Shown: piece after piece, positions 28,994 to 53,300 of the stretch
Numbering within the stretch: position 1 is the stretch's first letter
Layout of the letters: every line of letters starts with the position of its first letter
Assembly: GCA_937141405.1 (NCBI GenBank)
Contig: CAKZQQ010000006.1
Location: 248,001 to 312,000, forward strand
From: an uncultured Campylobacterota bacterium
GTDB lineage: Bacteria; Campylobacterota; Campylobacteria; Campylobacterales; Sulfurovaceae
Direction of reading: 5' to 3'
DNA length: 64,000 nt
The notes under the pieces: generated by a model
The model's database searches: none
Seen by the model: the letters and a program-made list of their open reading frames with translations, nothing else
Told to the model about the DNA's origin: nothing
Position numbers and translations under genes: made by a program

Positions 28994-29965
28994 ATGGAAT
29001 TTTTTAAAAGAACCGATCCGATAGCCTTTATGTCGCAATCAATGCGATTTGGTGTACTCTCCTTAATTTTGGTTGTTGCCTCTTGGGCAATTGTTGCTCT
29101 TCAAGGGCTTAACTATGGTATAGATTTTGCCGGTGGAACGCTTATCCAAGTAAAATACGAAGGGAAAGCCCCTCTAGAAGAGGTTAGAAGCCTTATGAAT
29201 GGGAGCGAGCAGTTTAACGGTGCCCAAGTAAACTATTTTGGCTCAGAAGATGAGATAGTTATCAAGACAAAGACAAGCTCAAAAGTCGTAGGCGATGATG
29301 TGAGCGATGAGGCAAAAAAAGTTTTAAGTAGCAGCGGAAACTTTGAGATACGAAGAGTTGATATGGTCGGCCCAAAGATTGGAAGTGAGTTGAGAGAAAA
29401 GGGGCTTATGGCGATGTTGCTTGCTATTATGGGGATTCTTGCCTATGTCTCTTTTCGTTTTGAGTGGAGATTTGGTCTTGCTTCTGTGATAGCCCTTGTG
29501 CATGATGTGAGCATAACGCTTGGTGTTCTTTCCCTTGCAAAGGTCGAGATCAACCTCGATATCCTCGCCGCTCTTTTAACACTGCTTGGGTACTCACTCA
29601 ATGATACTATCATAGTTTTTGATAGGATCAGAGAGGGGCTTGGAAAGCTCAAAAATTTAGATCTTACAGCCATCATCAATACCTCAGTGACACTGACGCT
29701 CTCAAGAACGACACTCACGTCGTTGACAACTTTCTTTGTGGTGCTTTCGCTCTATCTTTTTGGAGGAGAGATTATAAAAGGGTTTAGCTTTACGCTCTTG
29801 GTCGGTATCATAGTAGGTACCTACTCCTCTGTATTTATCGCTTCACCACTCTTGATTTGGCTCAAACTTTCTGCACGTGAGTATCAAGCTCGTGAAGCCA
29901 AAAAACTCCAAAGAGAGAAAGAGAAAGAGCGGATGCGCGCTATGTATGAGAAAGGAACTTTATAA
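28994..29965 (+). CDS. secF: Protein translocase subunit SecF
   Basis: SecF is the partner of SecD, 323 aa from the ATG with AGGGGAG 5 bases ahead. It has the N-terminal [10 protein letters not shown], then [16 protein letters not shown], and the transmembrane motif [18 protein letters not shown]. An ATG further upstream in the same frame lies inside secD and is not used. The last eleven codons ([11 protein letters not shown]-stop) are the first part of a 136-bp tandem repeat that continues downstream. Confidence 0.96.
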
Positions 29966-29987
29966 TATGCAAATGCATCCGCTCTTT
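29924..29987 (+). terminator. Long-loop hairpin overlapping the secF stop
   Basis: The arms AAAGAGCGGATGC (29924-29936) and GCATCCGCTCTTT (29975-29987) are perfectly complementary over 13 bp, separated by 38 bases that contain the secF stop codon. TTTTC follows the stem, so it may terminate yajC-secD-secF. Only copy 1 of the tandem repeat has the full stem; copy 2 retains 7 bp. Confidence 0.5.
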
Positions 29988-30236
29988 TCTTGTCGAAGAC
30001 AAAGCTTTAGTGAGATGAAGTGGCAAATGGGCTCTGCTCATTGCTGCGAAGAATATAAAATAGTACGGATGCGCGCTATGTATGAGAAAGGAACTTTATA
30101 ATATGCAAATGCATCCGCTCTTTTCTTGTCGAAGACAAAGCTTTAGTGAGATGAAGTGGCAAATGGGCTCTGCTCATTGCTGCGAAGAATATAAAATAGT
30201 ACGGATGCGAGTTATGGATGAGAGAGGAACGCTTTA
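29930..30236 (+). repeat. 136-bp tandem duplication containing the secF 3' end, plus a degenerate third copy
   Basis: Copy 1 (29930-30065) and copy 2 (30066-30201) are identical over 136 bp by eye. A third partial copy (30202-30236) matches the first 35 bases at 28 positions. Each copy begins with the last codons of secF (encoding [10 protein letters not shown] or, in copy 3, MRVMDERGTL, then a stop) and continues into the downstream sequence. Within the unit, TTGTC-GAA-GACAA and an imperfect GCAAATGGGC / GCTCATTGC stem can fold. Because 136 is not a multiple of 3, each copy shifts frame. A 74-codon open frame runs across the junction but is a by-product. The region holds no recognised gene. 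Confidence 0.9.
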
Positions 30237-30241
30237 GTAGC

Positions 30242-30269
30242 ACATCTGCACTAAAAATTGTGCAGATGT
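30242..30269 (+). promoter_or_regulatory. Hairpin covering the dacB start codon
   Basis: ACATCTGCAC and GTGCAGATGT form a perfect 10-bp stem with the loop TAAAAATT. The ATG at 30266-30268, the best dacB start, is in the 3' arm. Such a hairpin would sequester the initiation site, so it may be a translational control element, or a remnant of the neighbouring repeat. Confidence 0.45.
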
Positions 30270-31942
30270 ATCAAGTACTTTTTCTCTTTGTAATTGCCTG
30301 CACATTTGCGCAGGCAGATTTTGTTCCCTCAGAGCTCCAAGCGCTTATCGATAAGTCAGGTATGCCTTCAAAAAAAATCAGTATTTATATCAAAGAGACA
30401 AAGAGCAATAAATTGATCGCTTCGCTCAATGCAGCTAAGCTAAGGAATCCTGCTTCCGTCATTAAGATAGCAACGACTTATGCGTCTGTATTGCAGCTTG
30501 GATATGATTATAGATGGGTGACGGATATAGGATATAACGGCTCTATCTCACAAGGTGTTTTGCGAGGTAATCTTATCATTAAGGGGGGAGGCGATCCTGA
30601 TCTTAAAGATGAAGATGTTTTTGAAATTGCTCAATATATCCGAGATAAAGGAATCAGAAAAATAGAGGGCAATATCATCTTAGATAGGTCAATATTTGAT
30701 ACGTCAGGCGGTAGTAGTGCTAGATTTGATGAAAATCCTTATAGTCCTTATAATGCCCTTCCTGATGCGATAATGTTCAATCAAAATCTTAGCCATTTTA
30801 TGATTACCCCACAAGGATCACAGATAGCAGCTTCAAAATCTTTTGATGATAGAAGTTATAAGATAAAAAATAGACTTAGGGCTGTCAATGCGGCTTGTCG
30901 CTATCGGTATTCATGGCCACGAGTAGATGTCGATCAAGGGAATTATCCGGCAGTTGTTACGCTGAGTGGAGACTATTCACTCAAGTGCCCTCAAAGAGAG
31001 CTTGATTATATCGTGACTCGATCCTATTATGCTTTTTATTTTGCACTTGTTGAAGCACTATCAGATCTGAGTGTATCCGTAGAGGGGAAATTGAAATTGG
31101 CATCTGCAAAAGGCTATAAAAAGCTTTTTAGCCATAAATCAAAAACTTTAGAAGAGATCATATCTGAGACAAACAAAGAGAGTAATAATCTCTTTGCTAG
31201 ACAGATATTTTTAATGCTTGGTTATGCAAGATACGGGGAGCATTCCGGCTTAAATAATTCAAGGGAAGCGCTTCGCAACATTCTATATGAAAAAGGGGTT
31301 ACTAACCTTTCCAAGATAAAGATCGACAACGGCTGCGGGCTCTCAAGAAGTGTTCGAGCAAATACGCTTTTTTTTGCTTCAATCTTAGATAGCGCCTATA
31401 AACACTTTGGAGATAGATGGCTTGCAAATCTATCAATTGCCGGAGTGGATGGGACAGTAGAGAAAAGATTTGATAGTGCACTTTATCGCAGAGCATGGAT
31501 GAAAACAGGAAGCTTGAGAAATGTAAAAAATATCGCAGGATATGTGGCGTCAAAAAATAGAAAACTCTATACGGTTGTTATCCTATGCGAGGGTGTGAAT
31601 GCAAAAAAAAGAGGTAAAAAATTACAAGATGAGATTATCCATTGGCTTTGGGAGGGCAACTTACATCAAAGCAAAATCATAGCGGAAGTCAAAGAGCAAC
31701 CAAAATCCCCACAAGCGCAAGATGGAGCGTATTATATCCAGGTGGCATCTACACTTCAAGAGCCAAATCAAGCGTTTTTAAACAAAATTATACAAGCAGG
31801 ATACGGCTATAGAGTCTATAAACAAAATGGGAAAAATAGAGTTTTTGTAGGTCCATATAGCCTTGAAAATGCAAAAGAAAAACTTTTTGGCGTTAAAAAA
31901 ATGATTAATTATGACGCTTTTATTGTAAAAATTATATTTTAA
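30266..31942 (+). CDS. dacB: D-alanyl-D-alanine carboxypeptidase/endopeptidase (PBP4, S13) with SPOR domain
   Basis: This is a penicillin-binding protein of family S13 that trims or cleaves peptidoglycan cross-links, 558 aa. The chosen ATG gives a clean signal peptide (YQVLFLFVIACTFAQA). A longer in-frame ATG at 30218 would add residues encoded by the repeat. The active-site motifs are SxxK in NPASVIKIA (Ser ~63), SxN in KESNNLFA (~305) and KTG in WMKTGSLRNV (~412). Residues ~485-558 form a SPOR domain (YYIQVASTLQEP ... FVGPYSLENAKEKL), which binds denuded septal glycan. PBP4 proteins usually lack SPOR, so septal targeting is suggested. Confidence 0.92.
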   Translation: MYQVLFLFVIACTFAQADFVPSELQALIDKSGMPSKKISIYIKETKSNKLIASLNAAKLRNPASVIKIATTYASVLQLGYDYRWVTDIGYNGSISQGVLRGNLIIKGGGDPDLKDEDVFEIAQYIRDKGIRKIEGNIILDRSIFDTSGGSSARFDENPYSPYNALPDAIMFNQNLSHFMITPQGSQIAASKSFDDRSYKIKNRLRAVNAACRYRYSWPRVDVDQGNYPAVVTLSGDYSLKCPQRELDYIVTRSYYAFYFALVEALSDLSVSVEGKLKLASAKGYKKLFSHKSKTLEEIISETNKESNNLFARQIFLMLGYARYGEHSGLNNSREALRNILYEKGVTNLSKIKIDNGCGLSRSVRANTLFFASILDSAYKHFGDRWLANLSIAGVDGTVEKRFDSALYRRAWMKTGSLRNVKNIAGYVASKNRKLYTVVILCEGVNAKKRGKKLQDEIIHWLWEGNLHQSKIIAEVKEQPKSPQAQDGAYYIQVASTLQEPNQAFLNKIIQAGYGYRVYKQNGKNRVFVGPYSLENAKEKLFGVKKMINYDAFIVKIIF

Positions 31943-52757: not shown

Positions 52758-53300
52758 TTATTGTTGCGCAGGCGGAGGTGTGCCCATCTTTTGCTGCATC
52801 TGTGTTGCTTGATGTTTTGTAAATTCATCAGCCGTTACATTACCGTCACCATTGGCATCGATATCACTAAAGGCAGGTGCACTGCCGGCATTTTTCATCA
52901 TCTTGCCTGCTTCGGCATTTTGCTTCATGCGTTCTGCGCGCGCTTGATCAAACTCTGTTTCAGGGACTACGCCATCACCGTTGAGGTCAAAATCACTAAA
53001 ACTCGGTCTGTTTATCATACCTTGTCCCATTCCTTGTCCTTGCCCCATACCATTGCCCATACCTTTTCCTTGGCCCATGCCATTACCCATGCCTTTTCCC
53101 TGTCCGACACCCATGTATTTTTGACGCTCTTCGGGGGTAAGTGTTTGCATACGCTTTTGCATCTCTTGTTGGAAAGCAGGACGCTCATCGAGTGAAACCG
53201 TTCCTCGCATATTCATCAACTCTTCCGTGCTCATTTGAGAAAAATCTGTAGCCCAAAGAGCCATACAAGCAAGTGCTGATATGATCATAATCTTTTTCAT
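52758..53300 (-). CDS. Secreted EF-hand protein with Gly/Met repeat
   Basis: This 180-aa exported protein (signal MKKIMIISALACMALWA) has a DUF1104-like N-terminal helix pair (MSTEELMNMRG ... EERQKYMG), a low-complexity Gly-Gln-Met stretch made of near-identical GQGKGMGNGM units, and two EF-hand loops, DLNGDGVVPETEF and DANGDGNVTADEF, with the canonical Asp/Asn/Gly/Glu calcium ligands. The C-terminus is Gln-rich (QATQMQQKMGTPPPAQQ). It probably binds calcium in the periplasm; the role is unknown. A TATAAT box on the minus strand near 53353-53362 lies upstream. Confidence 0.8.
   Translation of the reverse strand: MKKIMIISALACMALWATDFSQMSTEELMNMRGTVSLDERPAFQQEMQKRMQTLTPEERQKYMGVGQGKGMGNGMGQGKGMGNGMGQGQGMGQGMINRPSFSDFDLNGDGVVPETEFDQARAERMKQNAEAGKMMKNAGSAPAFSDIDANGDGNVTADEFTKHQATQMQQKMGTPPPAQQ
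53020..53106 (-). repeat. Coding tandem repeat in the EF-hand protein gene
   Basis: A 30-bp unit encoding GQGKGMGNGM occurs twice in near-identical form, with a partial third (GQGQGMGQGM). It is a length-variable low-complexity coding repeat, not a CRISPR. Confidence 0.75.

Follow-up and report, generated by a model that had tools for sequence, protein, structure and literature searches.

The window, by which we mean the whole 64,000-nt stretch of DNA analysed here from an uncultured member of the Sulfurovaceae (Campylobacterota), carries a secF gene (28994–29965, + strand; TIGR00966 transloc_SecF, 310 bits, above the cut-off) and, starting within its 3' end, two identical 136-nt units in tandem (29930–30065 and 30066–30201, +). 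These are followed from 30202 by a partial third copy, in which 28 of the first 35 bases are those of the unit. On the assembled contig, this bears out a preliminary description of the locus, which had reported two identical 136-bp copies and a diverged third, each beginning with C-terminal codons of secF; the copied codons are the last 11, together with the stop. Chance repetition is ruled out by the 136 identical bases. Each unit opens with 36 bp copied from the secF tail, followed by a 13-nt segment termed A' and an element of ~77 nt termed E, within which hairpin H1, CUUUAGUGAGAUGAA, hairpin H2 and an A-rich end succeed one another. Unit 1 (all parts on the + strand) thus resolves into the tail copy B1 (11 codons and stop, 29930–29965), A' (29975–29987, placed 1 base 5' of H1), H1 (29989–30004), the conserved core CTTTAGTGAGATGAA (30005–30019), H2 (30020–30047) and GAAGA with the A-rich end (30048–30065), which abuts the next tail copy. 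Unit 2 repeats this arrangement, with its tail at 30066–30101, A' at 30111–30123 and E extending to 30201, and the diverged third tail copy, B2, lies at 30202–30236 (+). The 13-bp stem across the secF stop, also noted previously in the first copy, is a perfect inverted repeat (29924–29936/29975–29987). Its left arm, A (29924–29936, +), is the reverse complement of A' and is assigned, from this repeat and from the junction geometry, as the left arm of a helix H0 enclosing the secF stop; it straddles the left edge of the tail copy, with 6 nt to the left and 7 nt to the right of 29930. Folded together with the left arm, unit 1 is predicted to form three hairpins at −44.7 kcal/mol (z −3.5), an energy matched by 1 of 200 shuffles.

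Downstream of the repeat lies a gene for a PBP4/DacB-type carboxypeptidase (30218–31942, +; TIGR00666 PBP4, above the cut-off), whose true start, judging from a signal-peptide-like beginning, may be the ATG at 30266. By eye, a perfect 10-bp stem (ACATCTGCAC/GTGCAGATGT) was seen at 30242–30269, just 5' of and over this likely dacB ATG. The repeat was rejected as a promoter or terminator, given that no promoter-like site was detected in 29600–30600 and that the sole terminator-like site in the same scan (a hairpin with a T-rich tail, 30294–30317) falls inside the start of the dacB open reading frame. Another reading frame, 29877–30101, crosses one unit and ends in the next tail copy; it does not represent a conserved small protein, since by eye the same frame stops early at a second locus (L011) and has no start there at a third (L249). 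Elsewhere in the window, a 30-bp tandem repeat of 2.8 copies was observed at 53016–53099.

Compared with its own genome, the unit gave weak, dispersed matches to its 3' part, and four of these places have in common AAGCTTNAGTGAGATGAA between two hairpins. The core pattern CTTNAGTGAGATGAA was found in 61 of the 175 genomes of the window's family, and the same pattern read backwards in two. From 33 aligned copies, RNAalifold proposed H2 unaided, and 11 of the 12 pairs of this hairpin changed on both sides in some sequence; the H1 stem covaries also. None of 500 shuffles reached the observed covariation score in any of three alignments (A1, 33 copies; A2, 105; A3, 68), and the score lay far above that of slid controls; a model of the A1 structure guided the fitting of A2 and A3, and both are biased towards that structure, while A1 was not fitted and A3 shares members with A1. 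E is therefore a structured RNA, as shown by compensatory base changes. The earlier view of the repeat as a duplicated secF end plus a hairpin holds for the tail and for the hairpins, but the unit contains more than duplicated secF sequence, as ~77 nt of every unit are the conserved element. Mutual information further couples one base of the core with another situated 3' of H2, in combinations that do not follow Watson–Crick rules (U-A 71, G-G 52, G-A 12 and U-G 0 among the 135 elements with both bases read; of the 163 elements collected, nine lacked a readable second base and the remainder a readable core). This linkage is not due to kinship alone, because both types occur within one genome (L161 and L211, both from G011). 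Elements of the G type carry a Shine–Dalgarno-like AAGGAGA after H2, often 7–8 nt before a start codon. No match over E was returned by Rfam 15 at an E-value of 1 or below, either in 29500–30700 of the window or at 13 other loci; RNase P and tRNA matches around E were to the host genes. Group I introns have a catalytic core (P3–P9) that is longer than E, and this class was rejected on the grounds of E being too short for such a core and having no Rfam intron match.

Model searches recovered six strong and two weak matches in the window's own genome and detected E in 103 of the 175 family genomes, which represent 9 of the 11 genera and carry as many as 14 copies each (model R1, E-value ≤0.001). 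Across the phylum, 68 of 397 sampled genomes (16 of 68 genera) contained E, all of them within the window's order (model R2, E-value ≤1e-4). These genome counts are lower bounds, as the strict filters drop weak matches. Carriage by phages or plasmids was rejected, since neither 50,697 phage records nor 72,556 plasmid records yielded a match; four pattern matches on viral contigs were, by eye, without H2. The stems are mostly unlike between the E copies of the window's genome, and recent transposition within that genome is therefore not seen. Over half of the genomes of one family thus harbour a structured element without an Rfam match, which adjoins rRNA, ribosomal-protein and other housekeeping genes.

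The genomic neighbourhood of E was surveyed in 163 distinct elements from 100 regions, which are mostly the best-scoring genome matches and not a random sample; array copies are undercounted in this collection and in the tally of linked bases, because adjacent copies in tandem overlap one another when searched with the model. The next open reading frame lay on the same strand in 126 of the 163, a longer opposite frame was present in 24 (including tRNA loci and cases, that of the window among them, where the examined stretch ended short) and none was found in 13, whilst a same-strand gene preceded E in 130. The median distance from the end of the model to the first in-frame ATG was 11 nt. E is hence mostly sense and just 5' of housekeeping genes, the position expected of a cis-regulatory RNA leader. 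The 136 downstream proteins fell into 85 clusters, which dismisses a hairpin specific to secF, and include guaB (n = 6), metK (n = 6), argF (n = 6) and murI (n = 5). All 16 downstream proteins tested were named by NCBIfam: guaB, metK, argF, murI, L27, L11, clpX, infA, dnaK, groEL, L13, L9, hslV, trpB, transketolase and prfB, of which dnaK and transketolase are cut by the end of the locus and scored under the cut-off of their TIGR models. Beyond protein genes, two copies stand directly 5' of 16S rRNA (L128 and L138), and four lie within the RNase P RNA gene (L194, L196, L197 and L199; element at 1501–1582, spanned by RF00010), presumably as or in the P12 arm. Six more are antisense between tRNA genes, with the 3' end of E no more than 2 nt from the tRNA 3' end (L127, L142, L209, L231 and two in L245); the 3' ends of tRNAs and genes are usual harbours of mobile DNA. 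At six further loci (L215, L227, L229, L230, L255 and L296), we observed a variant with a small open reading frame (ATGAAA...) that begins where the preceding gene stops, traverses E and continues as far as the following start codon; the beginning and the end of this frame are complementary.

As to function, our likeliest guess is that E may be a module for translation initiation or RNA processing of the gene that follows, because it is sense, sits near the start codon, has a Shine–Dalgarno-like end in one type and also occurs beside rRNA. Its position at our locus would fit an effect on dacB. A role in translation does not agree with the antisense copies next to tRNAs or with those within RNase P RNA, which favour a mobile element that these sites simply tolerate. 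If E does act in translation or RNA processing, it would constitute a shared regulatory part of this order.

Neighbouring E cores were also encountered in tandem elsewhere, with 18 distinct pairs 60–160 nt apart among the loci examined, most with periods of 74–81 nt. Growth in tandem is thus characteristic of E as such and is not peculiar to secF. Together with secF loci that carry the unit zero, one or two times, these pairs agree with the suggestion in the preliminary description that the locus is prone to copy-number change. The identity of the two units in the window, and a sister genome whose contig ends inside the same element, would also be expected had assembly produced the second unit, so that one cassette, or some other number, were really present. 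We consider such an artefact very improbable, given that tandem E arrays occur in single-contig genomes (G062, 92 bp; G233, 74 bp), and one unit alone would still leave the order of tail, A', E and diverged tail.

The arrangement at secF reads A, tail B1, A', E, tail B2, and its parts recur at other elements. Direct repeats flanking E (score ≥15) were detected in 24 of the 159 elements testable for them, compared with 1 of 159 mismatched control pairs; tandem arrays are among the 24, and most elements (135 of 159) have no tail duplication. An inverted match 5' of E (score ≥11), corresponding to A', was present in 22 of 161 testable elements against 1 of 161 controls, and ended at H1 in 18 of the 22 as read from the list of matches. 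Tail duplications of genes, of variable length (23–57 nt), were found at 18 loci, namely 14 secF, 3 lepA and 1 other. In 11 of these 18, the exact match between A and A' crosses the left edge of B with 2 nt or more to either side; among the remaining seven, it is shorter, shifted or absent. The junction in lepA lies at two positions, one in L283 and the other in L282 and L284 (lepA was identified by TIGR01393 in L282 and L283, and in L284 by its matching tail), and A' matches each. A' thus tracks the junction in two genes, secF and lepA, and, as it follows both lepA junctions, is tied to the insertion point rather than being a hairpin needed by one gene. A spare gene tail and an inverted target edge point to an insertion mechanism that is open to testing. 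A reading along the lines of the preliminary description would be that ordinary slippage duplicated the secF tail with its neighbouring sequence, that a later event made the second unit and that the hairpins are by-products. Slippage and unequal exchange commonly duplicate DNA in tandem and would explain two identical units, but the part of this view that concerns E is already contradicted by conservation of the element at many unrelated genes, and other genomes show the order of tail, A', E and tail again, both at secF and at lepA; we therefore regard slippage as very unlikely.

On a SecF tree of 100 rows, the presence of E changed at least 10 times, nine of these changes being forced by the starred branches, and E has thus been gained or lost repeatedly at secF. 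The tree was built by a quick method with the tail left out and has some long branches; ten of its rows were added for carrying E, two (L009 and L301) have the same sequence, and two rows cut by contig ends were left uncounted. Within the window's genus, 10 of 11 genomes had a secF match, with E there only in the window's genome and in G006, whose contig ends inside E. The closest pair of filled and empty sites is L252, with E, and L050, a near-empty site without it. The downstream tail and flank of L252 are the native tail and flank of L050, whilst its upstream tail differs by synonymous changes, and therefore the insert consists of [B1–A'–E], the native tail having been shifted 3' of it. This is the single clean pair for polarity, two others (L202/L048 and L034/L063) being ambiguous. 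No donor of the L252 upstream tail was found in the 175 genomes. By analogy with this pair, from which we infer the polarity of B2, the third copy in the window is probably the displaced native secF tail, and the two identical tail copies would have come with, or arisen from, the cassette. The earlier interpretation of the third copy as an older duplication is accordingly probably wrong, the downstream tail at the filled site being native and the upstream one having come with the insert. Separately, a different repeat (AACGCCAGCGTTGCGAGCCGTCCGCTGAGGACA...) was noted in several copies 3' of secF in L048 and L202.

The same history could alternatively be read as one of loss, with E at secF old, vertically inherited and often removed by recombination between the tails, the identity of tails maintained by gene conversion, and E a conserved cis-acting RNA whose patchiness reflects its loss. 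Such loss would be easy through a direct repeat, and the same genes are found behind E in several genomes. Vertical inheritance is at odds, however, with the upstream tail of L252, which is unlike the native tail while its downstream copy equals that of the empty relative, with tails that are identical within a genome and different between genomes, and with lepA junctions that differ. We judge this reading unlikely, though with a claim to be weighed.

Our preferred account, which we hold to be probable though well short of assured, is that E is a structured RNA family which, at gene 3' ends, spreads as a tail-copying cassette. Small structured RNA elements of one Campylobacterota order would occupy operon gaps just 5' of genes and, at gene 3' ends, a cassette of tail copy B1, A' and E would enter at a point within A. 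In this way the target gene would still end in a functional tail, and its native one, B2, would persist downstream as non-coding DNA; at secF of the window, the cassette would be present twice in tandem. The first insertion may copy the tail of the target and fold back on the target edge, producing A'. Recombination within the shared tail could then carry copies from one strain to another, and unequal exchange between the 136-bp units could alter their number. First insertion, spread and unequal exchange would in this way account for B1, A' and B2 and for the zero, one or two units observed, with E itself putatively acting in RNA as the module of the next gene suggested by its place and structure.

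A resident reverse transcriptase was rejected as the mobilizing enzyme of E: the window's genome has E and no RVT_1 domain, and this domain is encoded in 56 of the 175 family genomes and is missing from many that bear E. The window's genome encodes three Y1_Tnp genes (L310, L311 and L312, of which two are near neighbours on a single contig). These genes, along with the tandem arrays and hairpins, would suit a DNA repeat of REP-like or MITE-like kind that a Y1 transposase of the IS200/RAYT type mobilizes, and the RNA structure of which would only mirror its DNA hairpins. We find this very improbable in view of the 15-nt unpaired conserved core, long target duplications and strong sense bias of E, and no E match was obtained near the Y1_Tnp genes in the own-genome search. 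More speculatively, and decidedly unlikely in our estimation, E could serve as scaffold to a minimal mobile unit guided by RNA, in which A', immediately 5' of this scaffold, would pair across the uncut target and set the insertion point and the unit would bring a gene tail that keeps the target whole. An A' that spans the junction, in a unit of ~134 bp without a gene of its own, would in that case resemble the pairing at intron splice sites or that of a guide RNA.

Several known systems share features with this cassette. Integrative elements in the 3' ends of tRNA or protein genes bring a replacement 3' end, such that the target gene stays whole; unlike these, the cassette is ~134 bp and has no integrase or coding genes, and A' has no known counterpart. 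The rtT repeats of the E. coli tyrT locus reportedly comprise tandem units that each start with the 3' end of the upstream gene. They concern a tRNA gene in one bacterial group, whereas here a protein gene is combined with a conserved RNA that also stands alone at many genes, and the Rfam scans of window positions 29500–30700 and 13 loci gave no match to rtT. ERIC, Correia and similar non-autonomous repeats are short, structured and located in transcribed gaps, yet show inverted repeats at their ends or short duplications of the target in place of the 23–57-nt gene-tail duplication and inverted target edge seen with E. Derivation of E as a MITE of an insertion sequence was likewise rejected, since the tail duplications vary and the inverted copy comes from the target and not from E's own end (terminal repeats judged by eye). 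REP or BIME sequences with RAYT proteins, according to PMC3733652 and PMC2817692, are like E in their small size, their hairpins and their dispersal through intergenic DNA, at times as arrays. REPs are described there as palindromes of 20–40 bp tagged GTAG or CGTC (PMC3733652) and, as repeats other than E, are reported from Sulfurovum sp. NBC37-1 (PMC3733652, PMC2817692). E differs from them in its ~77 nt, in two hairpins around an unpaired conserved core, in its sense bias and in copying the target tail at some sites; membership was rejected on this size and structure and because no GTAG or CGTC tag occupies a fixed place in the A1 rows by eye. Within the same phylum, the candidate motifs of Arcobacter sp. 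L are structured and intergenic, with most said to be confined to Arcobacter (PMC6429828); some overlap with E may exist, the comparison being one of descriptions rather than of sequences. The accessible parts of the literature on RNA motifs in this group (including PMC3733652, PMC6429828 and PMC3847290) contained no description of E. What lacks a placed counterpart is the cassette that copies a tail and carries the target edge inverted, whilst E itself belongs in kind with the small structured intergenic repeats.
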